Assembly (NCBI RefSeq): GCF_001854245.1
Contig: NZ_CP015381.1
Span: 832,001 to 896,000, forward strand
Reading direction: 5' to 3'
Origin: Desulfococcus multivorans
GTDB lineage: Bacteria > Desulfobacterota > Desulfobacteria > Desulfobacterales > Desulfococcaceae
DNA length: 64,000 nucleotides
The notes under the pieces: generated by a model
The model's database searches: none
The model's input: only the letters and a program-made list of their open reading frames with translations
What the model was told of the DNA's origin: nothing
Shown: positions 29,808 to 61,328 of the stretch, piece after piece
Layout: each line of letters starts with the position of its first letter
Numbering within the stretch: position 1 is the first letter of the stretch
Program-made: the position numbers and the translations under genes

Positions 29808-30899
29808 TCAAAAAGGATTTTTTTCGGACCGGGTATTCGAGAAGTCGAAACCCAACCCCGGTCGGCCGGTGGGGTAAAGAACGCCGCGCTTGAGACGGAC
29901 GGCGCCTGAGGCCGGATCGCCGATCAAATCCAGATGACCATCCAGGTCGGCATAACGCACATTGGGCCGGGCCATGGCGAAGTGAAGGCCCGCCGCGATG
30001 GACAGCGCGGATTCGTCCATACAGCCTACCATGGCGTCAAGGCCGGCGGCACGGGATACGGCGTTGATCTTCATGGCTTCGTCGATGCCGCCCACCTTCA
30101 TGAGTTTGATGTTGACCATGTCGGCCAGGCCCCGACGGGCGATCCTGTATGCGTCCTTGAGGCTCATGAGGCTCTCGTCCGCCATGACCGGTATGGAAAC
30201 GCCGCTGGTGACCCGTCCCAGCATGGCCGTCCGCCCGCGGGGCGTCGGTTGTTCGATGAGCTCAAGGCCGGCAGGACGGGTTTGTGTAACGAAATAGAGT
30301 GACATCTCTTCCGAGTATCCCTGGTTGGCGTCGAACCGGAGAGCGATCTTTTTCCCGACGGCCGACCGAACGGCCAGAACCCGGACGATGTCGTCCTCCA
30401 CGTCTATTCCACCCTTGAGCTTGAGAGCCGTGAATCCCTCTGCCGCGAAGGTCATTGCCCGGCGGACGGTATCATGGGGCGGGAGAATGCCGATGGTGAT
30501 GCTCGTTCGCATCCGGTTCCGAAAACCGCCCAGGAGTCGGAACAGAGGCAGACCAGCCTGTTTTCCCAGGATATCGTAAAGCGTCATGTCAACCATGGCC
30601 AAAGCCGAGGGTTGGTCTGCGAGGTGCGGCCGGATTTTCTCCATAAGGCGGACCAGGCGCAAAGGATCGGCTCCCGTGAGTGCCGGCCGGATCACATCCG
30701 TGACGGCCGCCAGGATCGATGTCGGGGTCTCGCCCGTAACCTCCAGGTCCGGAGCGGCGCAGCCGTAACCGATGACGGATGTGGAGGTCTGAATCCGAAG
30801 GAATACATTGACGGCCGAATCCACGGTTTCGTATGCGATGGTATAGGGTTCGGCCAGTTTCAGGGTGAGGGGTACGGCCTCGATCCGGGTGATTTTCAC
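29808..30899 (-). CDS. Dipeptide epimerase / N-acyl amino acid racemase-like enolase-superfamily enzyme (DgcA-like)
   Basis: This 363-residue protein belongs to the muconate-lactonising subgroup of the enolase superfamily. Catalytic residues are visible: general bases Lys in ALKLKGG and Lys in [10 protein letters not shown], and metal ligands Asp in RFDANQGY, Glu in LIEQPTPRG and Asp in VMADESL. The C-terminal GCMDES and DLDGHLDL match dipeptide epimerases such as L-Ala-D/L-Glu epimerase. Relatives called DgcA racemise N-acetyl-glutamate and are paired with DUF1611 proteins, exactly as here. It is the last gene of the cluster, five bases after the fusion gene. Substrate (dipeptide or N-acyl amino acid) is inferred. 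Confidence 0.85.
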
Positions 30900-30904
30900 G
30901 GGAC

Positions 30905-33286
30905 TCAGTATCTCCGCTGATGGATTTCATCCAGGGTCATGTGTTTGATCTCCTCCACAAAGGCCGTGAGATGGGCGATCATTATCGTCCACATCTGTTC
31001 TCCCTTGGCGGCGGTGGCCTTGGTGGGGTCTCCCATGATGCCGGAGGCGGAAATCTTTTCGGTGTGGGCATACCAGGATATGCCTCGTTTGGAACTGAAG
31101 TTGAGGTACCGGACCGAGAATTCAGGAATCTCCCGCTGGATGCGATCCATTCGGACGAGGTGGGGCCGGACTGCCAGGGCCGTGCTGGTTTCGATTTCTC
31201 CGGCGTGGACATCGTTGGGGGTTTCCACCAGACGATCGATATCCACGTCGCTGGTCTCTCCACTGTCCACGCAAACGAATATCCGGGCGTCGCGGTTGAT
31301 CTTCTGGGCTGCGTGGTTGAGAGCGGGACTGTTCCCGCCGTGACCGTTGATGATCACCAGTTTGCGAAACCCGTTACGCGCAACACTCATGCCGATGTCG
31401 TAGACCAGCCGGGATAGGGTGTCGTTGTCGATGCTGACGGTTCCCCGGAAGTCATCGTGGTGATAGGAGACGCCGTAGGGAATCAGCGGGAGAACCATGG
31501 GTTTGGGATCACTGCAGGCTTCGGCCACGCATCGGGCCAGATACTCGGCATCGTAGGCATCGGTATCCAGAGGCAAATGGGGCCCGTGCTGCTCCATGGC
31601 ACCCACGGGCAGAAGGACGGTATCCACCTCGTCAAAGCGCTCCTCGGCATCGGGCCAGCAGAGTTCTCCCCAGAGATAGGCGGTGTTCTGAAGCGTGTCC
31701 GGCGGTTGTGCCGTGGCGCCATGGCCCGGTGACAGTTCGAAGGGGTAGGGGGCTACCATCTCAGGATCCGTCAAGGGATCGAATTCGATCCAGCGCTGCC
31801 CTGCCCGACGGACGGCGCCCTGAGCGTATTCCCCATAGATGCGATAGAGGGGCTCCCTGAGGTCCACGGGGATGGCGTTTATGGGGGAAATGACGGGGTC
31901 GAAGCGGATCCGCAGGATCTCGGCGGCGGGCAAAGACTCTCCCGTCGGCGAAGATGTCGAGGGAATCCGTCCTTTCTCGGCCAGCATATTCAGGAGTTCC
32001 GCGGCCTCCGAGGCCGTCTGGGCATAGGTTCCCTTTTCCGCCAGGGCTTTGAGACATGCAGCGATCTGAATATCCGTGTATCCGCACCGGCGGGGATCTT
32101 TGCCCACGGCCGTCAGCATTCCCACGATGCGGCGGCATTTTTCACATTTGCCGCAGGGTCGAATGCGATCGCCGTCCTTGTGGGCTGCGTGACAGGAGAT
32201 CTGGAGGGTCTGGAGATCAGGGTATCGTCCGGCCAGGATCTTTTCTATCAGCAACTCCGAGAGGGGTCTGAGAAGGGAAAATTGAGAGACGGCCCATCCT
32301 TTCCGCTGAAAATACCGCGACATCGTGTTGTCAAACCAGATGCTCTGGTCGTAAAGACCGTCGTAGTGACTGATCCCCTGGTGGGCAGTCCTTCGGGACG
32401 TGTCGTGTTCATCACCGATGATAAGCCGACCGATCTTTCGTTCCCGAAGGATCGGCAGCACGCCGAAGAGAAAAACGGCCACCGTCCAGAGCCGGATCGG
32501 ATATTCGTCATGGCGGACGCTTTGAAAATCCTTTCGGATAAACGGCATCCGCCGGAGCATCCACGAGAAAAGCCGATCCGAATTGACCCATACGCGTCCG
32601 GTGCGGGGAATGTTTTCACGAAAATGGCGGTAGGCGTTCAGCGCCGTGAACCAGTGCCGTCCCGATTCATTGACGAAGAGCGGGTGGACCTCTCTTTCCA
32701 GCTCGTTGATGAGACCGAAGCTGAGAAGACTGTCCTTTCCGCCGCTGGAAAGAACGCAGTGACGGTTTTTGTCCGTCTCCCACAATCGCCATGGGGGGAA
32801 ACGGCCTTCGCTTTCCGTCGGAAGGAATTTGAGTTTGGCGTTGAGGTATTTTTTTTGGCGAACGGCCGGCAGCGCCATGGCCTCGCCCGTAAGAAATGGG
32901 TTGGGTTCCAGAAATTTCTTGACGAATATTTCCCGGGCGGTGTTTTCCGCCATATCCCGCAGGAAGGCACGGTCGGTGGCGTCGTAGGTGCCGATGAACC
33001 GGATCTGGCTGCAGAAAAGGCCGTAATTGAGAGCTGCCTGGGCGGCGATCATGTCGGCCAGGTTCCGGCATTCGGGATTCTGCGGATCGAATACCGGCGT
33101 CTCGTAAACGTAAATCAACTCGGTGACGTCTGTTTTTCCGCCGATATGAATGCGATAGGGGGCCACGAGACGTCGGGGCGCCAGAGTGACGGGTCCGACC
33201 TCCAGTCGATCGAAGACGCGGAGCACTGTCGCCGGATCGGCGGTCTCTCTATCCCGGGGGGCAGGCGAAGGGGTTTTGTTTGTCAT
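30905..33286 (-). CDS. Fusion of a PP-loop ATPase-like domain and a creatininase-family amidohydrolase
   Basis: This 793-residue protein joins two enzymes. Residues about 175-400 form a PP-loop domain with the ATP-pyrophosphatase motif SGGKDS (181-186), an acidic IIGDEHDT, and a zinc site CGKCEKC (378-384) reminiscent of QueC/ExsB-type amide- or nitrile-forming enzymes. Residues about 535-793 are a creatininase-type metal amidohydrolase with [31 protein letters not shown] and the Glu in HAGEIETS, so the metal ligands are intact. The first 170 residues are unassigned. Ligase-like adenylation and hydrolysis in one chain is unusual. The ATG at 33286 has no good ribosome site, and the frame stays open about 25 codons upstream, so the true start is uncertain. 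I do not recognise a characterised homologue. Confidence 0.75.
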
Positions 33287-33454
33287 GGCGTTGGCTGTTC
33301 GCAGGGGTTGAAATAGCGCCGGTTGTTGAACGATTCAAGCGGCGCGACAAGTCGACCCATCATGATCCGGATGCCCTCATTGCGGCCCGCCGACATGAAG
33401 TTCCTGGCGGTGACGGCTTTTGGATACCTGCCGGTGTCCGGACATCCCGGTGCA

Positions 33455-34582
33455 TCAGATAGGCGGACAAAAAGGATACGACGGCGCTGTCCATACTTCC
33501 TTCAGCAGCTTTCGGTCCCGGATAAAGGGCATCAAGCGTTTCGCCAGTTCGGTGCCGCCGTTCCGAAGTACATCGTAAGCCGGGACGCCCACGTCCCGGC
33601 AAATGGCGGCGCAAACCGTCGGAATCGTCTCGGCGGGCAGATCCTCGTGATTCAAGGTCACGGCCGCGATCGGTCGGCCGGAGAGGATCTGAATGGCCTG
33701 AATCTGGTGACTGAGGGGCTGGATGGGGTAGCCTGGAAACCCGTCATAATCCCGCCTGGCCGGGGCGTGCTGGAGTACGACCACGTCGGGCCGGCCGGCT
33801 GCGAGGATTTCGAAACCGCCGGGATAGGCCGGGTTCATGAGACTCCCCTGGCCTTCGATGACGATGACGTCGGGCCGGGTCTCAGTCCAGGCGCGGACTA
33901 CTGCGTGCTCGATCTCGCCTGAGACGAAGTCGTTCACCAGAGCGTCCATGACCAGGGTATAACGGGCGCCTTGCATCCATGCAGTCTGGCCGGTCCCGAC
34001 AAGCTCGGCCCGACAGCCCAGGGCCTCGAATGCCTGGACCAGGATCCAGGCCGTGGTGCGTTTGCCGACGGCGGAGTCCGTTCCCAGCACGGCGATCCTG
34101 AAAGCCTCGACGGATTCGATGCTGCCGCTGAAGAAGTGGAGAGACGCCCGCGGGGGCGGCTTTCGGATGTCCCGGATCGTCATCCCTTTTTCGGCGGCCA
34201 ACGCCCTGATCGCGGCATCGTCGCTCAAAAAGTCATGGAGCCCGCAGTCCACGTTCAGTCCCATCTCCACGGCCCGCACCACGTCGGCTCTGGCGGCGGG
34301 ACTGAGCCGGCCCCCGTCGGGTGCGATGCCGATCACGCAGTGGGTGGGCGGATACGCCCCTTGAGAGGCCGCCTCGACCGCCGCGGCCAGGGAGGCTGAC
34401 ACCGGAATCCCGTTGGGCTTCCCGTCGAGGATCAGTCCAGCATCCTCTCCTGCATGGCGGGAATCCACCACGGACAGGATGCGGTAGCGTCGTGTAAACC
34501 GGACCAGCCCGTGGGCGGTTTTCCCGTTGGGGGTGTTGAAGGCCCCTTCGCAATAGACGATGGCGTTTCCTTCCGGATGCAT
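33455..34582 (-). CDS. DUF1611 family protein (DgcN-like)
   Basis: This 375-residue protein fits the DUF1611 family: an N-terminal Rossmann-like half and a C-terminal P-loop-like half with VLGTDSAVGKRTTAW (around residues 195-210) and DVIVIEGQGSLMNPAYPGG. A DUF1611 protein, DgcN, has been described as a D-glutamate N-acetyltransferase working with a DgcA racemase; a DgcA-like gene lies two genes downstream here. The start shares one base with the stop of the PLP gene (TGATG), so the two are translationally coupled. A 168-base gap separates it from the fusion gene. Whether the substrate is D-glutamate is inference. Confidence 0.8.
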   Translation of the reverse strand: MHPEGNAIVYCEGAFNTPNGKTAHGLVRFTRRYRILSVVDSRHAGEDAGLILDGKPNGIPVSASLAAAVEAASQGAYPPTHCVIGIAPDGGRLSPAARADVVRAVEMGLNVDCGLHDFLSDDAAIRALAAEKGMTIRDIRKPPPRASLHFFSGSIESVEAFRIAVLGTDSAVGKRTTAWILVQAFEALGCRAELVGTGQTAWMQGARYTLVMDALVNDFVSGEIEHAVVRAWTETRPDVIVIEGQGSLMNPAYPGGFEILAAGRPDVVVLQHAPARRDYDGFPGYPIQPLSHQIQAIQILSGRPIAAVTLNHEDLPAETIPTVCAAICRDVGVPAYDVLRNGGTELAKRLMPFIRDRKLLKEVWTAPSYPFCPPI

Positions 34583-35685
34583 CAGGATTTCCTCCCCGTC
34601 AGAACAACGACATAGCGATCGCCCGGCAGTGTCTGTTTCTGGTGATGCTCGATCATGGCGATCAATCCGGCGGTGGATGCCGGAAGCACATCGAGGCCTT
34701 CCCGTTCCCGAATGAGGCGTGAGAAGGCCCGCATGCTCTTGTCTGTGGCGTTGCCGGCCCAGCCGCGGGTTTCCCGGATGGCGTTCAGCGCTTGATCACC
34801 GTCGATGGAATGCCAGTTGATCAACGGCTCGTTGATGCTGGTTTCCCGAATTGCCTCTGGTCGCAAATCCTCGCACCGCGGGGTATCTTTAAGGAAGGCT
34901 CGGACGATCGGGTTTTTATGGTAGGCGGATCCGGCCACCATTCTGGGCATCCGGGAGGTTTTTCCACGCCGATAGAGGCTGAGAAACCCCTTGTAGATAC
35001 CCGAGAGGGTGGTGCCGTTCGAGACGGGGACGGCCACCACGTAGGGCGCATCGCGAAGTTCGTCGTAGATTTCGTAGGAGATTCCCCCATAGGCCTGAAG
35101 CTGCAACAGGGTGTTGTGGCCTCCGGGATTGGCGTCGTAAAAATCCGCTCTTTCGGCTCGCGCGGACGAGGCTTCCACGGCACGCTCGTAGTCGTTGCCC
35201 TCCCGGACGATCTCGGCGCCCAGAGCGATCATTTCGTTCACTCGGCGGGTATGGTAGGCCTCAGGAATATAGATGATGCACCGAATGCCGGCAAAGGAGG
35301 CGGCCAAAGCCAAAGCCACACCGTAATTGCCGCAGGTGGCCACCGTGATGGTATCGAATCCCCGCCGAAGCGCATCCATCGCCTGAGCAAAAGCGATACG
35401 GTCCTTCTGGGTTCCCGTGGGATTTCCACCCTCGAATTTGAGGTAGATCTGACGCAGCGCCATCTCCCGCTCGATATTTCTTGCCCGGACCATCGAGGTG
35501 TCCCCCACCTCGGAGTCGATGATGTCTTCAAAAGCCTCGAGCCGGGCTTCCAGAGAACATGCGGGATCCGCCGCCACACGGCGCTGCTCCTGAACATACC
35601 GGGAAACCTCGTCGATCTGGCCGGTGGCGCCGTCCATCAGGTTGTGGTGCCGTTCTTCGATTTCTTTCGGGTCGTCCTGCAGCAT
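34582..35685 (-). CDS. Threonine-synthase-like PLP-dependent enzyme (fold type II)
   Basis: This 367-residue enzyme belongs to the tryptophan-synthase-beta superfamily. The Schiff-base lysine lies in GGNPTGTQKDRIAFAQA, the substrate/phosphate loop is VATCGNYGVALALAA, and PVSNGTTLSGIYKGF is the PLP-phosphate loop. The closest named groups are threonine synthase and cysteate synthase, but GTQKDR replaces the usual SFKDR. It opens with a helical 50-residue extension. AGGAGG three bases before the ATG at 35685 supports this start; an earlier in-frame start would overlap feoB. It is the first gene of the unusual cluster, coupled to the DUF1611 gene, and follows feoB by 67 bases. The reaction (beta- or gamma-replacement or elimination) is unknown. 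Confidence 0.78.
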   Translation of the reverse strand: MLQDDPKEIEERHHNLMDGATGQIDEVSRYVQEQRRVAADPACSLEARLEAFEDIIDSEVGDTSMVRARNIEREMALRQIYLKFEGGNPTGTQKDRIAFAQAMDALRRGFDTITVATCGNYGVALALAASFAGIRCIIYIPEAYHTRRVNEMIALGAEIVREGNDYERAVEASSARAERADFYDANPGGHNTLLQLQAYGGISYEIYDELRDAPYVVAVPVSNGTTLSGIYKGFLSLYRRGKTSRMPRMVAGSAYHKNPIVRAFLKDTPRCEDLRPEAIRETSINEPLINWHSIDGDQALNAIRETRGWAGNATDKSMRAFSRLIREREGLDVLPASTAGLIAMIEHHQKQTLPGDRYVVVLTGRKS

Positions 35686-41795: not shown

Positions 41796-42887
41796 TTATT
41801 GGGACAGCAGCACTCGCTCCTCTTCAAAATCGGCATTCTCCAGAGCGATTTTTCTGAACTCGTCCGACAGATCGAGAAACGCGTCCACGACATCCGGATC
41901 GAAGTGGGTTCCCCGTCCCTCCCGAATCATCGCCACTGCGGTTTCATGGGGATAGGGCGGCTTGTAAACCCTTTTGCTGATCAAGGCGTCATAGACGTCG
42001 GCCACGGCCATCAGCCGACCGAAGAGGGGGATCTCTTCTCCCTTGAGTCCTTGAGGATATCCGGTGCCGTCCCATTTTTCCTGATGGCTGTATGCGATTT
42101 CGCGGGCAACCGAGAGAAAGGAATCCTGACCCAATTTTTTTTCGGAGGCTAAAATGGCATCCCTCCCGTAGACGGTGTGCTGTTTCATTTCTTCGAATTC
42201 CGCTTCAGTCAGCTCCCCCGGTTTGAGCAGGATGTTGTCACGCACGCCGACCTTGCCGATGTCATGGAGGGGTGCGGATTTGACCAGAAGCTCGATGGCG
42301 GTGTCGGTGAGACGTTCTCGAAACTTGGGATGAGTTTTCAGATGCTCGGCCAGGATTCTGACGTAATGCTGGGTGCGCCTGATGTGCCCGCCTGTTTCCG
42401 GATCGCGGTATTCGGCCAGAGTTCCCATGCTCTGTATGGTGACGTCCTGGGTCAGAACCAGCTGGCGGGTACGCTCGCGAACCAGGTCTTCCAGATGGTC
42501 CCGGTAGCGTTTAAGTTCCAGCTGGTTTCGAACCCTGGCTTTGACCAGGGCGGGACTGAAGGGTTTCGTGATATAGTCCACAGCCCCCAGACCAAGCCCT
42601 CTCGCCTCATCCTCCTCGTCGCTCATGGCGGTCAAAAACACAATGGGAATATCCCGGGTTTCGGGAACGGCCTTCAGTCGGCGACACACCTCGTATCCAT
42701 CCATGCCGGGCATCATGATATCCAGGAGAATCAAATCCGGGGGCTCGTCCGCTATGGCTTCCAGGGCCGTTTCACCGTCCATGGCCACGCGGAGGTCGAA
42801 ATCCTTGCCCAGCGCTTCGACCAGGATATCGATGTTGGTTTCGGTGTCGTCCACGATCATGACGGTACAAGTCGATATGTCACACAT
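41796..42887 (-). CDS. Response regulator with HD-GYP output domain (RpfG-like)
   Basis: This 363-residue regulator has a receiver domain (VMIVDDTETNIDILVEAL, phospho-acceptor Asp in LILLDIMMPGMDGYEV) joined by a helix to an HD-GYP domain with HDIGKVGV and YSHQEKWDGTGYPQG. It should hydrolyse cyclic-di-GMP when phosphorylated. It is encoded 36 bases after a hybrid kinase that ends in an HPt domain, so that HPt is the likely phosphate donor. GAGG eight bases upstream supports the ATG at 42887; a GTG three codons earlier is possible. Confidence 0.9.
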   Translation of the reverse strand: MCDISTCTVMIVDDTETNIDILVEALGKDFDLRVAMDGETALEAIADEPPDLILLDIMMPGMDGYEVCRRLKAVPETRDIPIVFLTAMSDEEDEARGLGLGAVDYITKPFSPALVKARVRNQLELKRYRDHLEDLVRERTRQLVLTQDVTIQSMGTLAEYRDPETGGHIRRTQHYVRILAEHLKTHPKFRERLTDTAIELLVKSAPLHDIGKVGVRDNILLKPGELTEAEFEEMKQHTVYGRDAILASEKKLGQDSFLSVAREIAYSHQEKWDGTGYPQGLKGEEIPLFGRLMAVADVYDALISKRVYKPPYPHETAVAMIREGRGTHFDPDVVDAFLDLSDEFRKIALENADFEEERVLLSQ

Positions 42888-42923
42888 ATGTCTCACCTCG
42901 TTTCTGGTGTGTCCGGAAAAGGG

Positions 42924-45900
42924 TTATTCATCCTCGGTCGACGCCAGCAATCTTTTCACGACTGCCGTCGCTTCCCTGAACCGATATCTGTCGATCAACC
43001 TGCCAAGTTCCGCAATTTTCGGGAAAACCGGGTCCGGCCAGGCCAGGATGTTGATTTGGGCCATGATGTCTCTGATCGGAATGGGCTTTCCTTTGATAAG
43101 ATGGGGCTGCATCTCGGAGAGGAGGCGTTTTAATGTGTTCAGATCCGCTGTTGCCGCTCCACGAAACGCCAGGGCGGTGCCATTCGGCGACATCGCCTTT
43201 GATGATACTTCATCAGGCGTGTCAGGTTGCATTATCCGATCCCGAAGGGTGTCGAGAACGGCCTCAAGGGCCGATTCGAATATCCGGATTCGCTTCGCGA
43301 TCTCCACCCGGTCTCCTCCGTTCAGAGCAGACTCCAGTTCCGTCGACGCCCTGTAAAGGGCTGATGCCCCGATATTCCCGGCGACGCCTTTCAGCGAGTG
43401 AAGCCTTCGGCGGCCGGGTTCCGGGTCCTTCGACATCAAGGACGTCGTGATCTCGAGAGAGACGGCCTGGTTCTCCTGATAGAATTTTTTCAACAGGCTC
43501 AGATATAGATCCGCGTTTCCGCCCACGCGGGAAAGGCCGTGCTTGACGGAAATGCCCGGCAGATCCGTTGAAATCGATGGCGGCATCGGGGATTCAAACG
43601 TCGGTCCGTGGATGGATGAAGGAAGACCCGGTTTGTTTGGCGGCACCGTTCCGGAAAGCATTTCCGCGGATGAAATGTCGGACTCCCCGCGGGAAATCCA
43701 TTTGATCAGAACGGAAAAGAGCGTTTCCGGATCGATGGGCTTGGCGATGTGCTCGTTCATACCGGCTTCGATACATTTCTCTCGATCTCCGGTCAAGGCA
43801 TGGGCCGTCATGGCGACGATGGGGATCAGGGGAGACGATCCCTTTGCGTGGGATGCATCGGATGCGGGAGAAAGATGCGGACCGCCTGATGTCCGAATGC
43901 GTCGGGTTGTCTCGAATCCGTCCATGGACGGCATCTGGATATCCATGAACACCAGGTCGTACCGTTTGGTTTCCAGGGCTTCGAGGGCGGCTTTGCCGTC
44001 GGCGGCGACATCCACCCTCACGCCCATCTGTTCCAGCAGCTCCACGGCAACCTGGCGGTTGATGTCGTTGTCTTCCACCAAAAGGACCCTGGCGCCGAGG
44101 ATCCGCTTCAGCGCTTCCGGCGGCACAACAGGTTTCGAGAGGATACGCGGCGGTACGGAGACGTCTTTTTGGAACAGGCCCATGATGGTGTTGAACAGCA
44201 CGGACGGGTGGGTCGGTTTCAGGAGAAAGCCGTCAAGGACGTTCACATCCGTTTGGGCGGTGATCTCCTCGCGGCTGTAGGCCGTTACCATGATAACCGC
44301 GGGTATGTGCGGTTTGGGAAGCGTTTCTTTGATCCGACGGGCGGCTTCCACGCCGTCCATCCCCGGCATTTTCCAGTCCATGAGGACCAGGGGGTAAGGT
44401 CGTCCTTCCCCTATGGCGTGTTCAAGCTCCGCCAGAGCGACTTCCCCGGAACCGGCCGTAGACACCTCGAAAGTCATCGCTGTAAGATAATCCTTCAGGA
44501 TATTCCGGGCGGTGGCGCTGTCATCAACCACCAGGACCCGCATTCCCCGGAGTCCGCCGACAGCCTGGACGCGTTTCCGACGGGCGTTTTCATCAAGGCC
44601 GAATACGGCTGTGAACCGAAAAACCGAGCCTTTGCCGATCTCGGACTCGATCTCGATTTCTCCGCCCATCAACTCCACCAGCCGTTTGCTGATGGTTAAG
44701 CCCAGACCGGTGCCGCCATATCTGCGGGTGGTGGACGAGTCGGCCTGGGTAAAAGGGTTGAAAAGCTTTTCAGCCTGATCCCGGGTCATGCCGATGCCCG
44801 TGTCACGCACCTCGAAACCTAAGGTAACGTTGCTGCCGACGTTCTTCTGGGTCGTCACCGAGACGACAATTTCGCCTTTCTCGGTGAATTTGACGGCATT
44901 TCCCAAAAGGTTGATCAGGATCTGACTCAGCCGGACCGGGTCGCCTACGAGGACCTGGGGTACGTCCCGAGAAACGGCGATCAACAGTTCCAGACCCTTG
45001 TCTCGGGTTTTTCCGGAGATGAGGACCGACACGTTGTTCATGACTTCTTCCAGGTGAAAGGTCACCTGTTCCATGTCGAGTTTGCCGGCCTCAATTTTGG
45101 AAAAATCAAGGATATCGTTGATGATTCTGAGCAGGCTGTGGGCGGACACATGAATTTTTTGAAGATAATCCATTTGTTTGGGGGTCAGGGGCGTCTGCAT
45201 GGCCAGGTAGGTCATGCCGATGACGGCATTCATGGGTGTACGGATTTCATGGCTCATGTTGGCCAAGAATTCACTCTTGGCCCTGTTGGCCCGATCCGCC
45301 GCCGACTTTGCCCGACGAAGCTCCTCCTCCTTCTGTTTGATTTCCGTAATGTCTCTGCTGACGCCGATCAACCCCAATATCTCTCCGGTGTGGCCGAATA
45401 TGGGTCGCATATCGCAGAGCATCCATCGTGTCCGTCCTTGCCGGTCCGTGTATCGCCATTCACGTCCCTTGATGGTTTGGCCGTTGTGAATCACGGCTTT
45501 TTCAGAAGCATAGTTTCGTTCGGCTTCCCCTCGAGGCAAGATATCGAAATCGGTCTTTCCTAAAAGTTCTTTCCAGTGGGTATGGTCGGTAAGGTCGGCA
45601 TAAGACTGGCTGGCGGCGGTGAATCGGTGGGTACGGTCCTTGATGTAGATGAAGTCGGATGTCTCCTCCAGCAGCGAGACAAAATCCCGATTGAGCGCGG
45701 TCATCTCCGTAAGGTCCCGGAAAGTGACGACGGCGCCGACCACCTGACCATTCTTCCGGATGGGGGTGCTGGTATATTCCACTGGAAAGCATGTACCGTT
45801 CTTGCGCCAGAGAACCTCCTGGGTTACATGGTCCTGGACGCCCCGGGTGTATGCCGCCGACATGGGGCACTTCTCCTCAGGGTAGGGTTGACCGTCCACG

Positions 45901-47180
45901 GTCGAGTGGTGGATCAGGTTATGGATACGTCGCCCCAGGAGTTCGTCGGCCGTGAAGTCGAGAAGCCGAACCGCGGCGGGATTGATAAAGATCGTCCGTC
46001 CGTCGTTATCCACCCCAAAGATGCCTTCCCCCGCGGATTCCAGGATGAGTCGGCTTTGCTCTTCGGCTTCGCGGAGGGCCGCTTTCTGGCGTCGGATCTG
46101 GAAGATCCAGACCAGACCGACAAGCATCACGATAAGAAGAATGCCGCCTCCGATCATGACGGTTTTCATCAGAAGCGTTTTGTGGGCCTGCCGGCGGTTG
46201 GCGGAATTGAAGATGAGCCGGTTCATGTCGACATCGGCTCTGGATACGAGTCCTGCGCCGTGAAGATGCTTCAACATCTCCCGCCATCGCTCGGGGTTGG
46301 TATGACCGGGCTCCACAAAAGGATAATGCATCAGATGCGCGATCTTATGTGCCTGGAACCGGTTGAAATCGGCAAAATCCATTACCGGAAGGATTCGCCT
46401 GAACTCCCATTCGATCCTGTCGGCCACCTCATGGGTATGTTCCATGGCGTAATGCCAGCCCCGGAGCGAGGCCTGAGTAAATCGTCGGACCATGTCGGGG
46501 TTTTCGTCCACAAGCTGCTTGCGGGTGAAAAGACTGTCGCCGTAAAAGCCGACGCCGTAAGAGGACGGATTGATGGAGACCAGATGCAGACCCATCTGCC
46601 GAGCGATCCACTCTGCTGCCAGGGTATCGTCCGGAATGACGTCCACCTCCCCCGTAAGCAGATCCGGAACGCCAAAACGGACGGGATGAGCCGGCACCTT
46701 TTCGGGATCGATACCTTCGGCGCGCAACATGGCCTGCATCTCCACATCGGACGCATCCCCGGGTTTTCGTCCGACCCGCAGTCGTAAGAGATCCGCTGGA
46801 GAGGTGAGTGCCGTCGTGCCAAGGGCATAAAAGGCGACGGCGCTCTGCTGAAAAATGGAAGCCAGGATCACGAGGGGCAATCCCTGATCCTGGGCTGCCA
46901 GGATATCCACCGCGCCAATGCCGAAATGGGCACGCCCTTCCGCCACTGCCGTCAGCGTGTCGACCTTGGTCTGATCCGGGTTTAAGCCGGATCGGATTTC
47001 AACCTCCAGGCCGGCATCCCGGTAGTACCCTTTCCACAATGCCGCGTAGTATCCTGCGAACTGAAACTGATGATCCCATCGAAGCTGCAGGACGATTTTT
47101 TCCAAGGCATCAGCGGGGGGGACGCCAAGCCCGCACAGCACCAGCATCAAAGCCGCGCCAATCATGCGACATCGCATCAT
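42924..47180 (-). CDS. Hybrid histidine kinase with NMT1/ThiY-like periplasmic binding domain, two PAS, two receivers and HPt
   Basis: This 1418-residue sensor carries its own ligand-binding domain. Order: signal peptide ([20 protein letters not shown]), NMT1-like binding domain about residues 25-320 ([21 protein letters not shown], as in ThiY/SsuA proteins), membrane helix about 338-361, PAS about 375-490, PAS about 500-615, HisKA with His644 in [10 protein letters not shown], HATPase, receiver 1 ([10 protein letters not shown], Asp in [11 protein letters not shown]), receiver 2 ([21 protein letters not shown]) and a C-terminal HPt ([14 protein letters not shown]). I place the start at 47180; a GTG at 47291 overlapping the previous stop (GTGA) is possible but would put 37 residues before the signal peptide. 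The binding domain suggests sensing of a thiamine-precursor- or sulfonate-like molecule. Confidence 0.88.
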
Positions 47181-47287
47181 GAAACAATGCCGTCTCCATT
47201 GTTTTCTTCGATGAAAACGGTTTTCCCTCCAAGCCTGATTTGTCAAAAGGCTCTCAGGCGGAGGGCGGTCGAGATTCACCGAGGTTG

Positions 47288-50200
47288 TCACGGTCCGTCA
47301 TTCCTTTCAACCTTCTCGAGGAGTTCATCCAGCGTCGTCAAGGCTTCCTTATATTGATATTTGTCGATTTGATGCCTCAGTGTCTCCAGCCGGCGGGAGA
47401 AACGCCGGGGCCAGACCGCTCCGTCAATCTCTGTCATGAGGATTTTGCTCTGTCGGGGTTGGCGCTTCTGCACCGGGGATTTCAGTCGGATAAGAAGGTC
47501 CCGGAGCATGTCCGGGGTCATCTCTCCGGCCCGGCCGGCGCTCCGTTCCGGTGAATCCGTTTCGGAGACGAAGGGTTTCAACGCATCGAGAATCTTTTTC
47601 AAGGCTGCACCGAACGGCTCTAACCGCTCTTGACTATCCTCTATTTCACCCTTCCGGAGGGCCGATTCCAGCTCGCCTGCTGCGATCTCGAGTTCCCGGG
47701 CGCCGATGTTGCCCGCAACGCCCTTCAGTGTATGGGCCAGGCGCAGGGCCAGCGGCGCGTCGTTCCGGGCCAGTGCTTCCCGAATCTCATCGGCGGCGCT
47801 TCCATGATCCTGATAGAATTTTTTCAGGAGGCGTCTATAGAGGGCTTCGTTGTTTCCCACGCGCATCAGGCCGTTTTCGACCGAAATTCCCGATATCTCG
47901 TTCAAATTCGGTTCCGGACCTGAGGGTGACGGCGGGCTTTCGATTTCGACGGGTTGGGGCGGTGGTGTGCGGTCGGTCGGCGGAATCCATCTAACCATCG
48001 CCGCGAACAGCGCTTCCGGGTCGATGGGTTTGGTGATGTGATCGTTCATTCCGGCGGCCAGGCTTTTGTCCCGATCTCCGGCCATGGCATGGGCCGTCAT
48101 GGCAATGATCGGGGTCGGCGCGGCGACGCCCGAAGTTTTCATGCGCTGCTTCTCGATTTCCCGAATGCGGCGCGTTGCGGTCAATCCATCCATCACCGGC
48201 ATTTGAATATCCATCAGCACCAGATCGTAATTTTCGGCCTGCCATGCTTCGAGGGCCGCTTTTCCGTCGTCGGCGAGATCCACGACCAACCCCATCTGCG
48301 TCAGGAGTTCCAGGGCGACCTGCTGATTGATGTCGTTGTCTTCGGCCAGGAGCACGCGTGCGCCTTTGATCCGTCGCTTGTCTGCCGGATCCATTGTCGA
48401 GGCGGTTTCGGCGGATGTCTGGGGGGAGTCTCCGATGCCGAGTACCTCCGTGATGGTGTTGAAAAGTGCGGACTGGCTGGCGGGTTTGATGAGGAAGCCC
48501 TCGAGCCCGACAGCCGCCGCCTGTTTCATCACCGCCTCATGACCGTATGCCGTGATCATGATGACCACGGGAATGTGGGGCAGGTTCATTTCCTGCTTGA
48601 TGCGCCTGGAGGTGTCGACACCGTCCATGCCCGGCATCTTCCAGTCCATCAATACGAGATCGAATGCCCGGCCCTTTTGGGCCTCGGACGCCAGCAGTAC
48701 CAGCGCCGCTTCCCCGGAATCGGCCGTGGATACCTCAAAGGAGAGGGCCTCCAGGTAACCTTTCAAAATCTCCTGGGAGGTCTTGCTGTCGTCCACCACC
48801 AGCACCCGAAGCCCCTTCAGGTCGGCTGAATGCCGCCGATGTCGCCGTGCTCCGGCATTGTTGTCCTGGAGATCGAAGACTGCGGTAAAACTGAAGGTGG
48901 ATCCTTTGCCCTCCTCGGTTTCAAATCCGATTTCACCCCCCATCAGGTCCACCAGTCGTTTGCTGATGGTGAGCCCCAACCCCGTGCCGCCGTATTTTCG
49001 GGTGGTGGATGTGTCTGCCTGGATAAAGGCGCGAAACAGCTTATCCGACTGTTCCCGGCTCATCCCGATGCCGGTGTCCTTGATCGAAAATCGCAGGGTT
49101 ACCTTCCGATCTTCACGCCGTTCCAGTTCCGCCGATACAAAGATTTCACCTTTTTCAGTGAATTTGACGGCATTTCCCGCCAGGTTGATGAGCACTTGTC
49201 CCAATCTGAGGGGATCTCCCACAAGGTTCATGGGCATGTTCGGAGCCGTGGCGATAATCAATTCCAGGCCCTTGTCCTGGGCCTTGACGGAGATCAGATT
49301 GGCCAAATTGTCCAGAACATCCTCCAGGTGGAACGGTACCTTCTCGAGATCCAGTCTGCCGGCTTCAATTTTGGAAAAATCGAGAATATCATTGATGATC
49401 CTGAGGAGCGCATAGGCCGAGACGTTGATTTTTTTCAGGTAATCCCTTTGCTTGGGCGTGAGCTCTGTTCTGAGGGCCAGATAGGTCATGCCGATGATGG
49501 CATTCATGGGGGTCCGGATTTCATGGCTCATATTGGCCAGAAATTCGCTTTTGGCACGATTGGCCTTGTCCGCCGCGCGACGCGCCCGGCGCAGTTCCGC
49601 CTCAGTTCTTTTTAGATAAGTGATATTCTTGCTGATACTGATGAGGCCCAGTACATTGCCTTCCAGATCATAAAACGGACGCTTGTCGCAGAGCATCCAA
49701 CCCACACCGCCGTTGGCGTCCGTGTACTGCAGTTCGTGGGCTTCTATCACCTCTCTCTTCTCGATCACTCTTTTATCAAGGGCGTGAGATCTTTCGGCCG
49801 CATCGAGAGGGAGGATTTCGAAAACCGTTTGCCCGGTGAGGTCCTCCCAGTGAGCGTGCCCAATAAGGTCGGCATAGGCCTGACTCGCGGCGGTGAATCG
49901 GTGGGCGGTGTCTTTTACATAGATGAAATCCGGCGTGTGGTCCAGAATGGCCACAAAATCCCGACTGTGTCTGCGCATGCGTTCGGCATGCAAGGTTTGA
50001 CGGATGATGTAAAAGGCCAGGAGCGAAACGACGAACAGGATGCCTACCGAAATGACGGAGAGCTTTCTGCGCATCAGGGCGATTTCGGCGTGGACGTCAT
50101 CGATGTAGATGCCGGTACCGATGATCCAATGCCAGGGTTCGAATCCCTTGACGTAGGAAAGCTTTGGAACGATTTTGGCGGGGGCGTCTTTCCATTGCCA

Positions 50201-59528: not shown

Positions 59529-61328
59529 GTGGAAAACAAGATAACGCCAAAACGGATTTTAAAAATCCTGGATACGGTTCCGGAATTGAAGGCGATTTTG
59601 ATTACCGATGAAGCGGTCGATGAGAAACGCCGCCTGATCCGGTATTTTCTTTCGGATACGCTCAATGCCGTCTTTGAAGACAACCCGACTATCCCCCCGC
59701 TGGAATGGATCCAAACCCGAAATGCCGTCAATGTGCTGCGGTCGATCGTATCCAAGCGAAACGAGCGTCTCGCCGGTTTCAGCCTGCTGACCTATATTAA
59801 TGATCTCATTCACGGGAAGGACCTGGGCGACCGACCTCAACCCGGTGCGGGATTTTATGCGGAATTTGAACACCTTTTACGGGCCGTCGTGGGGAAAACA
59901 GCGGTATACAGCGAAAAGGTTCCACCCTTTCTCAAACACTCCGGCCGAAGGGCGGCCCGTCTGAGATCGAAAGACCTCGGTCGCATGGCCGCGAATGCTG
60001 AAAAATATATGGCCCGTTATCCCTTTGGGCTGGATCGCGAGACCATCGCAAAGCGGAAGGCCAACAAACAGCGCATTCTGAAGTACTTCGGTGCTGCGGA
60101 TGCCGATTGGGAGAAATGGAAATGGCATACGAGCCATATCATCCGGGACGCCAAGACCTTGTCTGAACTGGTGACCTTGACACCCGAGGAGTTTCAGGCG
60201 GTCGAAATGGCGCGGCAACACCGCATTCCGTTCGGTATTACCCCATACTATCTCGCGCTCATGGATCCGAATCCGGACCGGAAGGCGGATTACGCCGTTC
60301 GGGCCCAAGTGATCCCGCCGCTCCATTATGTGGAGCGGATGAAGGAGAACAAGGCGAACAAGGGGTGTTCCATGGACTTCATGCTCGAACAGGACACGTC
60401 GCCCATCGACGGCATCACCCGGCGCTATCCCCATATCGTTATCCTGAAGCCGGTGATGACCTGTCCGCAGATCTGCGTTTACTGTCAGCGGAACTGGGAG
60501 ATCGAAGACGTCTATTCCCGTTCGGCCATGTTGGGACAGAAGCGGCTTGACGCCGCCCTGGAATGGATTGAAGGCACCCCGGGGGTGAAAGAGGTCCTTG
60601 TGACCGGCGGCGATCCGCTCCTGCTCGCAAACGACAGGATCGAGAAACTCCTGGGGAGGCTTTCCCGAATTTCTCACGTGGATCGGATTCGCATCGGCAC
60701 CCGCATGCTCGTGACCCTGCCTCAGCGGATTACCGATTCACTGGTCGACGCCGTCAGACGGTTCCATGTTCCCGGAAAGCGGGAAGTGGTTATCATGACC
60801 CATTTTGAACACCAATACGAGATTACCCCCCAATCCATGGCCGCGGTCCAGAAATTTCGACGCGCCGGCATGGGGGTTTACAACCAGATGGTCTTCACGT
60901 TTCACAACTCGAGAAGGTTCGAAGCCGCCGCCATTCGCCACCGGCTTCGCCTCATCGGCGTTACGCCCTACTACACCTTCAACGCCAAAGGCAAGGAAGA
61001 AACCGATGATTACCGGGTTCCCATTGCGCGCCTGCTTCAGGAACAGCACGAGGAGGCTCGGCTGATGCCCGGCACTGTGAGGACGGACGAGATCGTATTC
61101 AATGTCCCCAAGCTGGGAAAGAATTACCTTCGTGCGGGACAGCATCACGATATCATCTCGATCCTGCCCGACGGCCGAAGGGTCTATGAATTTCACCCCT
61201 GGGAGAAAAAGCTGTCCCTTGTGGACACCTATGTCTATACGGACGTCTCCATATACGATTATCTCGAACGGCTGAAGAAGGCGGGGGAAGACGCTCGTCT
61301 ATACAGCACCATATGGTATTATTATTGA
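59529..61328 (+). CDS. KamA-family radical SAM protein (lysine/glutamate 2,3-aminomutase-like)
   Basis: This 599-residue protein has the radical SAM cluster motif CPQICVYC (Cys312, Cys316, Cys319; the CX3CX2C pattern), then VLVTGGDPLLL and RIGTRMLVTLPQRI as in lysine 2,3-aminomutases. Lys in NVPKLGKNY near residue 520 is the candidate PLP lysine. Aminomutases are usually about 400-470 residues; here some 280 residues precede the cluster, with a helical N-terminal domain. The GTG start follows AAAGGAGG at seven bases. It could make beta-amino acids such as N-acetyl-beta-lysine osmolyte precursors, but no acetyltransferase is adjacent. Confidence 0.82.
   Translation: MENKITPKRILKILDTVPELKAILITDEAVDEKRRLIRYFLSDTLNAVFEDNPTIPPLEWIQTRNAVNVLRSIVSKRNERLAGFSLLTYINDLIHGKDLGDRPQPGAGFYAEFEHLLRAVVGKTAVYSEKVPPFLKHSGRRAARLRSKDLGRMAANAEKYMARYPFGLDRETIAKRKANKQRILKYFGAADADWEKWKWHTSHIIRDAKTLSELVTLTPEEFQAVEMARQHRIPFGITPYYLALMDPNPDRKADYAVRAQVIPPLHYVERMKENKANKGCSMDFMLEQDTSPIDGITRRYPHIVILKPVMTCPQICVYCQRNWEIEDVYSRSAMLGQKRLDAALEWIEGTPGVKEVLVTGGDPLLLANDRIEKLLGRLSRISHVDRIRIGTRMLVTLPQRITDSLVDAVRRFHVPGKREVVIMTHFEHQYEITPQSMAAVQKFRRAGMGVYNQMVFTFHNSRRFEAAAIRHRLRLIGVTPYYTFNAKGKEETDDYRVPIARLLQEQHEEARLMPGTVRTDEIVFNVPKLGKNYLRAGQHHDIISILPDGRRVYEFHPWEKKLSLVDTYVYTDVSIYDYLERLKKAGEDARLYSTIWYYY

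Follow-up and report, generated by a model that had tools for sequence, protein, structure and literature searches.

In the DgcN-DgcA systems of D-glutamate catabolism, a DUF1611 protein adjoins an enolase-superfamily epimerase; LysR and symporter genes are found at one dgcN-dgcA locus, and an ABC transporter at one haloarchaeal locus of DUF1611 and an epimerase. In the clan of QueC and MurL the known chemistry is in itself unusual, comprising nitrile formation, protein deazaguanylation and peptide epimerisation. PMC13329287 and PMC13279940 give SGGxDS, a cysteine site and, for QueC, YPDC as motifs, and PMC5808125 and PMC8788868 describe MurL as consuming one ATP, giving AMP and acting on the terminal residue of a peptide, with an adenylate proposed. 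Here we analyse a 64-kb stretch of DNA (the window) from Desulfococcus multivorans, the genome of which is one contig of 4.46 Mb, where relatives of both these groups stand together with a threonine-synthase-like enzyme and a creatininase-family amidohydrolase. The open reading frames at window positions 29808-35685 form four minus-strand genes encoding five enzyme domains. No description of this five-domain set was found in the literature searched (one library), as a first-pass annotation of the stretch had supposed.

In the direction of transcription the operon begins with PALP (34582..35685), a fold-type-II pyridoxal phosphate (PLP) enzyme of the NF004996/PRK06381 group, whose ATG lies within a longer TTG-started frame reaching 35805. 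The DUF1611 protein (33455..34582; PF07755 and PF17396, that is DUF1611_N and DUF1611_C) follows, with a Rossmann-like N domain and a P-loop C domain. The third gene (30905-33286) encodes a fusion of 793 residues, made up of a predicted ATP-pyrophosphatase domain of QueC-clan/MurL-like type (PPL, 31941..33286), recognised by its motif, its fold and the MurL profile, and a creatininase-family, MftE-like amidohydrolase domain (CRE, 30905..31696; PF02633). The last gene (29808..30899, GTG start; PF13378/PF02746, MR_MLE_C/N) codes for an enolase-superfamily dipeptide-epimerase-like enzyme (EPIM). PALP and DUF1611 overlap by 1 base, 168 bases separate DUF1611 from the fusion (33287..33454, minus strand) and 5 bases separate the fusion from EPIM; the first-pass annotation had given this layout exactly to the base, and its gene identities agree with the Pfam domains and with the motif and fold of the PP-loop half. 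Inside the 168-base gap no promoter- or terminator-like site was reported. The corresponding gap is at most 30 bases in 58 of the 72 relatives that have both genes (over-long frames counted) and at least 100 in 8.

The cassette is a dedicated pathway. A profile search of a named genome collection with the PP-loop domain gave 114 relatives, the best 80 of which were retained together with flanks of up to 10 kb per side. Whichever domains are present, they follow the order PALP-DUF1611-PPL-CRE-EPIM in 80 of the 80 loci, as placed by match coordinates, and the full set of five is found in 49 of them if those at contig ends are counted. For the count of completeness, which accepts any match on the cluster's strand within the retrieved stretch, 31 of the 80 loci were dropped since their clusters end less than 1,300 bases from a contig end; among the 49 with intact flanks PALP was present in 47, DUF1611 in 46, the creatininase in 45 and the epimerase in 41, with all five domains on the same strand in 38. 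The PP-loop and creatininase domains are separate genes in three loci (L043, L080 and L094). By the submitters' titles, which supply our phylum counts and name no phylum for 13 of the 80 loci, the cassette spans 13 phyla, including Acidobacteriota, Bacteroidota, Gemmatimonadota, Planctomycetota, Thermodesulfobacteriota and Calditrichota, and its hosts are both uncultured lineages and cultured ones, such as Desulfosarcina alkanivorans. The nearest named relative found is an uncultured Desulfococcus (L022), with 79% identity in the PP-loop domain. The first-pass annotation had called for such a neighbourhood survey and had named a lack of conserved linkage in advance as fatal to its reading; the linkage proved to be clear.

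The genes also vary together and occur together. Domain alignments were built from matches covering more than 80% of the query (68 PALP, 69 DUF1611, 81 PPL, 67 CRE and 57 EPIM sequences, the window included), and their pairwise distances correlate for each of the ten pairs of genes, with r from 0.35 to 0.74, at most 1 in 500 permutations being as high. Among 395 genomes drawn evenly from the phylum, PPL is present in six, to which one weak MurL-like match (G138) may be added. PALP is above its NCBIfam cut-off in seven of 395, six of them shared with PPL (Fisher 1.4e-12, assuming that both draws are of the same genomes, the identifiers of which agree wherever both listings give them); in the seventh (G421) the gene lies 160 bases from a contig end, on the downstream side. 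Family members of PALP in the 395 genomes score at least 411 bits and the next best protein only 177, and because of this gap PALP looks dedicated to the pathway. Chance linkage is ruled out by the fixed order, the distance correlations and the co-occurrence of PALP with PPL, and the earlier proposal that the genes form one pathway is supported by the same observations. No PPL was found on plasmids in 72,556 records, nor was its MurL-like cousin (L108), and no plasmid PALP was found at 1e-40.

Pfam at E 0.01 gave no match for the PP-loop half of the fusion, and at the same threshold neither PF06508 nor TIGR00364 (QueC) matched the fusion. The PP-loop half carries the PP-loop motif SSGGKDS at residues 180-186, where S181 to K184 and S186 are kept in 81 of 81 sequences and D185 in 74, the other 7 having Glu, together with four cysteines (C365, C378, C381 and C384) invariant in all 81. 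MurL is the sole NCBIfam family at E 0.001, matched by 32 of 41 PPL members (best 7.4e-9), and the cut-off of NF041275 (700 bits) is missed by far, with 22.4 bits for the window domain and 13-28 bits for the six members listed singly. The comparison used the MurL profile in place of a MurL protein; a search of 297 genomes of the phylum turned up a single weak match to the MurL family. An AlphaFold2 model (alignment of 41 PPLs; predicted local distance difference test, pLDDT, 89.6) has QatC as its best fold (Z 17.1; root-mean-square deviation, rmsd, 4.6 over 313 residues), followed by QueC (Z 13.9, rmsd 3.0 over 188 residues) and Cap9 (Z 13.7), with YcfA, TtuA, LarE and TilS near Z 9 to 10. PPL is thus, as modelled, a QueC-clan member by fold and nearest to MurL by sequence. 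It shares with QatC, QueC and Cap9 the PP-loop fold, SGGxDS and a four-cysteine site with CGxCxxC, QatC matching its N-terminal part as well, but differs from them in the missing Pfam QueC match, in an altered substrate motif and in having no qat genes among its four. The substrate motif YPDC is found in 0 of 81 PPLs; by eye L-Y/F-D-Q-S stands in its place, with Leu two residues before the Asp in 77 of 81. With MurL it shares the nearest sequence kinship, MurL being ATP-dependent, but PPL is fused to a creatininase, has PALP, DUF1611 and an epimerase as partners rather than MurD2, and its host possesses MurI; the pairing of MurL with MurD2 in a racemase-free host is not found here, no Mur ligase being among the four genes and glutamate racemase being present. 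Because of this kinship with the QueC clan by fold and with MurL by sequence, adenylation of a carboxylate, followed by inversion or amide formation, is by analogy the likely chemistry, which upholds the earlier suggestion of a carboxylate activator. A role in defence was rejected, since none of the four window proteins had a PADLOC match at 0.1; of two relatives submitted to the same search, L091 had no match and L100 matched QueC/QatC at E about 0.01 (QatC 0.011). A MurL-like protein of 453 residues, 27% identical to PPL, was observed in G138, a genome of the same phylum (L108:1213-2574).

CRE matches PF02633 at fusion residues 541-777 with 241 bits (cut-off 31.3, E 1.5e-71), and scores 161.1 bits against MftE (TIGR03964, cut-off 172) and 114 of 235 bits against creatininase. 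Its E35, H37, D46, H119 and E169 are invariant (67 of 67), the first four falling at positions that we take to be the metal ligands of creatininase. CRE has the Pfam family and most of the presumed ligand positions in common with MftE and creatininase, but misses both their cut-offs, is altered at one ligand position relative to creatininase and is fused to a PP-loop domain; judged by its residues it is likely active. EPIM has the dipeptide epimerases 3jva, 1jpm and 3rit as its nearest structures in the Protein Data Bank. K160, K162, D190, E216, D241, K265 and K268 are kept in 57 of 57 sequences and the DxD at 318/320 in 56, with one gap; presumably these are the lysines, the acidic metal-binding residues and the DxD of the dipeptide-epimerase residue set. 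The enzyme falls short of the cut-offs for both DgcA (NF042940, 147.8 of 400 bits) and the L-Ala-D/L-Glu epimerase (NF041118, 194.7 of 500 bits). Its signature of E24, D51 and D295 (55, 56 and 56 of 57) differs from annotated DgcA. Plasmid-borne epimerase relatives are 32-39% identical and keep the catalytic and acidic residues, but differ in this signature, and the genomic setting of EPIM is new. With the Methylococcus capsulatus dipeptide epimerase 3rit it shares GCMDES and DLDG.

PALP scores 181 bits against PF00291 and 431 bits against NF004996 (threonine synthase PRK06381, cut-off 266), but only 89.6 bits against ThrC (TIGR00260, cut-off 167.1). The first-pass annotation had singled out TGTQKDR as an odd lysine motif; this was mistaken, for its lysine aligns with that of PTGSFKDR in four solved threonine synthases. 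The PLP lysine K94 is kept in 68 of 68 sequences. With threonine synthase the enzyme thus shares the fold, the PLP lysine and the PRK06381 cut-off, while the NSVNPxR of the same four structures, a stretch that presumably binds phosphate, is replaced by YDxNPG (183-188, P in 67 of 68), in which D184 is invariant (68 of 68). Against the label, too, a Cys precedes the GN at the PLP pocket (67 of 68 sequences, with one gap). A separate ThrC above its cut-off lies elsewhere in the genome (L123), which disfavours PALP as the threonine synthase of this genome. Because of the replaced stretch, the genome's own ThrC and the co-occurrence with PPL in six of seven genomes, the label is doubtful, and the threonine synthase name of NF004996 is probably wrong for its members in these genomes. 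A cysteine synthase fused to a cysteinyl-tRNA synthetase in a 758-residue frame was also observed in the window's genome (L121:79-2352, near 1622576-1623412).

The Walker A motif of the DUF1611 protein, GTDSAxGKRT, is kept at positions 167, 169-171 and 173-176 in 69 of 69 sequences, and T168 in 67. Its model (pLDDT 89.8, alignment of 39) resembles the DUF1611 structures 2obn (Z 38.8) and 2g0t (Z 36.9) and then DgcN (7xrj; Z 30.6, rmsd 4.2, 324 residues), beyond which P-loop proteins tie at Z 13-15: cobyrinate a,c-diamide synthase, dethiobiotin synthetase, CTP synthase, cyclic 2,3-diphosphoglycerate synthetase, HypB, MinD and ParA. The protein likely performs the N-acylating or amide-forming step. 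Outside the cassette, the gene next to DUF1611 on plasmids is a dipeptide epimerase in a haloarchaeon (L113), DgcA in Sphingobium (L114), and a member of the alanine/ornithine-racemase family overlapping DUF1611 in Phaeobacter (L111), Vibrio parahaemolyticus (L112), Ruegeria (L116) and Vibrio lentus (L117), these last four being among the eight nearest plasmid matches (H1, H3, H4 and H8, 38-46% identity). The L117 racemase, the one of the four that was scored, reaches 376 bits against the ornithine racemase Orr (cut-off 480). From these six loci DUF1611 appears to tend to partner racemising enzymes; the epimerase of a Nitratireductor plasmid (L115) lacks a DUF1611 neighbour. Three of the four loci with alanine/ornithine-racemase genes have chaperonin or HflKC genes in the vicinity. 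With DgcN-DgcA the cassette shares a DUF1611 gene next to an enolase-superfamily epimerase, and the folds; the first-pass annotation had invoked those enzymes and D-glutamate. The DUF1611 protein reaches 146.4 of the 480 bits of DgcN (NF041892), both partners miss their cut-offs widely, the cassette has three further activities with no symporter or regulator in the block, and glutamate racemase is found above cut-off at two places elsewhere in the genome. The identity with DgcN/DgcA and the need for a D-glutamate source are both weakened by this, although the same annotation's ideas of a single pathway, of carboxylate activation by the PP-loop enzyme and of a set without a described counterpart stand.

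Tentatively, and with somewhat less than even confidence, we read the operon as a dedicated pathway of small-molecule metabolism, most likely biosynthetic and ATP-using, with an N-acylated or dipeptide-type product carrying one inverted centre. PALP would make or condense a non-standard amino acid, the amino group of which DUF1611 would modify, either with an acyl group from acyl-CoA, as DgcN is claimed to do, or via an ATP-made intermediate. PPL would adenylate a carboxylate (ATP giving AMP and pyrophosphate) and then take one of two courses: inversion at the alpha carbon via the activated ester, which is the proposal for MurL, or coupling of the acid to an amine; the fused creatininase domain may hydrolyse an amide or ring of the product, and the epimerase may equilibrate the C-terminal residue of a dipeptide or N-acyl amino acid. 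With the gene order, conservation, co-occurrence, families and conserved residues as observed, we infer every one of these reactions, their order and their direction. The key residues for such a route are intact, namely the epimerase lysines and acids, the Walker A, the PP-loop (with the Glu-for-Asp exchange in 7 of 81) and the four cysteines. In the 80 related loci the conserved block contains no transporter or regulator, and this mildly favours synthesis over salvage; sigma-54 regulators occur somewhere in the flanks of 14 of the 80, at varying distance. A basic or amine-bearing substrate side chain is our weak favourite, hinted at by the acidic residues E24, D51 and D295 of EPIM and D184 of PALP and by the racemase partnership of the plasmid DUF1611 proteins.

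Several observations weigh against the biosynthetic pathway so outlined. In 11 of the 49 intact loci a same-strand gene is absent (epimerase in 8, creatininase in 4, DUF1611 in 3, PALP in 2). The retrieved locus of Flexithrix dorotheae (L091) is one without an epimerase. No replacement of an absent epimerase by an ornithine racemase, or of an absent creatininase by another hydrolase, was found among ten neighbours in nine gene-lacking loci, and a Vibrio ornithine-racemase query against 658 flank proteins gave nothing at 1e-5; a putative metallopeptidase adjoins the cluster in one gene-lacking locus (L074), and an alanine-racemase-fold protein lies just downstream in another (L090), which has the epimerase and lacks the creatininase. 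By sequence the profile comparison with QatC is weak (E 0.0014, probability 17%). The fold of DUF1611 does not tell its chemistry, because its P-loop half is as much like MinD, ParA and HypB as like ATP-dependent synthetases. Residue 121 of CRE, which aligns with what we take to be the fifth metal ligand of creatininase (Glu), is Gly in 57 and Asp in 10 sequences, and for this reason the domain can be called likely active and no more, though E169 might stand in for that ligand. As for the basic side chain, 3rit has Arg at the E24 position, and the acidic residues concerned are only presumed to face the substrate. DxD had to be dropped as a mark of free-amine dipeptides, since an annotated DgcA carries it too.

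The main rival is salvage, in which the operon would break down a dipeptide with a D residue, a lactam or an N-acyl amino acid in a DgcN-DgcA-like manner, in which DUF1611 would acylate, the epimerase invert, the creatininase remove the acyl group or open a ring, and PALP carry out an elimination. We hold this possible but on the unlikely side: the DgcN fold of DUF1611 (Z 30.6), the six plasmid loci (haloarchaeon, Sphingobium, two Roseobacters and two Vibrio) with a racemase or epimerase next to DUF1611, and the presence of both a hydrolase and an epimerase in the operon all fit it, yet the block lacks a conserved transporter or regulator, the DgcN and DgcA cut-offs are missed by a wide margin, and an ATP-consuming PP-loop enzyme together with a threonine-synthase-like enzyme fits synthesis better. 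The same MurL kinship that points to adenylation could also mean that PPL forms a D residue, D-Glu or another, on a wall precursor while the other enzymes recycle wall peptides; according to PMC13338154, dipeptide epimerases are thought to serve murein peptide recycling. The genome, however, has its two glutamate-racemase matches above cut-off, which disfavours PPL as the cell-wall source of D-Glu, no Mur ligase is among the four genes, PPL reaches 22 of the 700 bits required of MurL, and its occurrence in the phylum is patchy (six of 395 genomes and one weak match), all of which leaves a peptidoglycan role very improbable.

We consider it more doubtful still that PPL shares with QueC and Cap9 the use of a 7-deazaguanine acid, which it would couple to an amino acid or peptide. 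QatC, QueC and Cap9 are its best folds, and the invariant D313 and F318 (81 of 81) match by eye the D-x4-F spacing that we take to belong to the longer YPDC motif of QueC, but the YPDC string itself is absent from all 81, and Leu occupies the place two residues ahead of the Asp in 77. Of the operon genomes searched, 22 of 22 have a PTPS (QueD-type) gene, but so do 9 of 14 control genomes, and canonical QueC is above cut-off in only 13 of the 22, so that QueC and the operon do not travel together. A proposal that does not compete with the biosynthetic pathway, though we think it improbable, gives the product a role in stress physiology, as a compatible solute or stress metabolite that DUF2179 membrane proteins would move or sense. 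Such proteins, the class of neighbour that stands out, were matched by similarity to two representatives and stand within the 10-kb flanks of 15 of the 80 loci (16 proteins; the expectation is 0.16, based on 49 profile matches across the 254 Mb of 58 genomes of the window's order), about 100 times commoner beside the operon than this one-order background predicts, and Pfam DUF2179 is found in 12 of 143 near neighbours. Genes for MscS, TerC, CorA and HSP20 recur nearby as well, given here without a background count. On the other hand, 65 of 80 loci have no DUF2179 neighbour, the nearest in the window's genome lies some 155 kb from the operon, and the observed and expected counts were obtained by different methods; as related loci do not count as independent cases and a single order supplied the background, the association is a lead only. 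DUF2179 is carried by two kinds of membrane half, YitT and DUF5698, and examples are found at L050:13467-14363, L033:13517-14374, L088:5943-6524 and L081:6952-7614. The tally of flanks covers 143 of 242 candidate neighbours in 76 loci, with 25 of 132 families tabulated.

A fixed five-domain set under 13 phylum titles implies a selectable product, for which we found no name; the cassette adds a branch to the QueC/MurL clan and gives a handle on DUF1611 beyond D-glutamate. To a specialist in enzyme discovery, the breadth of conservation and the MurL/QueC kinship may come as the surprise. In its boldest form the proposal would be a new pathway in more than ten phyla (by title), leading to a D-configured, amine-bearing dipeptide or N-acyl amino acid by means of an ATP-dependent peptide ligase or epimerase, itself a hitherto unrecognised QueC-clan branch with a fused creatininase; the product would be a stress metabolite or signal handled by the DUF2179 membrane proteins; in that entirety we regard it as a long shot.

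Around the operon, a FeoB-like gene (identified by eye) ends 67 bases away on the upstream side and a cytochrome c gene lies downstream. Promoter-like sites are no commoner than in shuffled sequence (2 against 2.0), terminator-like sites number 9 against 6.2 +/- 2.3, and no tRNA, and no RNA family at gathering scores, was found in the window. A 599-residue frame at 59529-61328 has no Pfam match at 1e-10. Closer to the operon, a response regulator with an HD domain (41796-42896) adjoins a hybrid sensor kinase of 1455 residues (42924-47291) that contains an NMT1/THI5-like domain.

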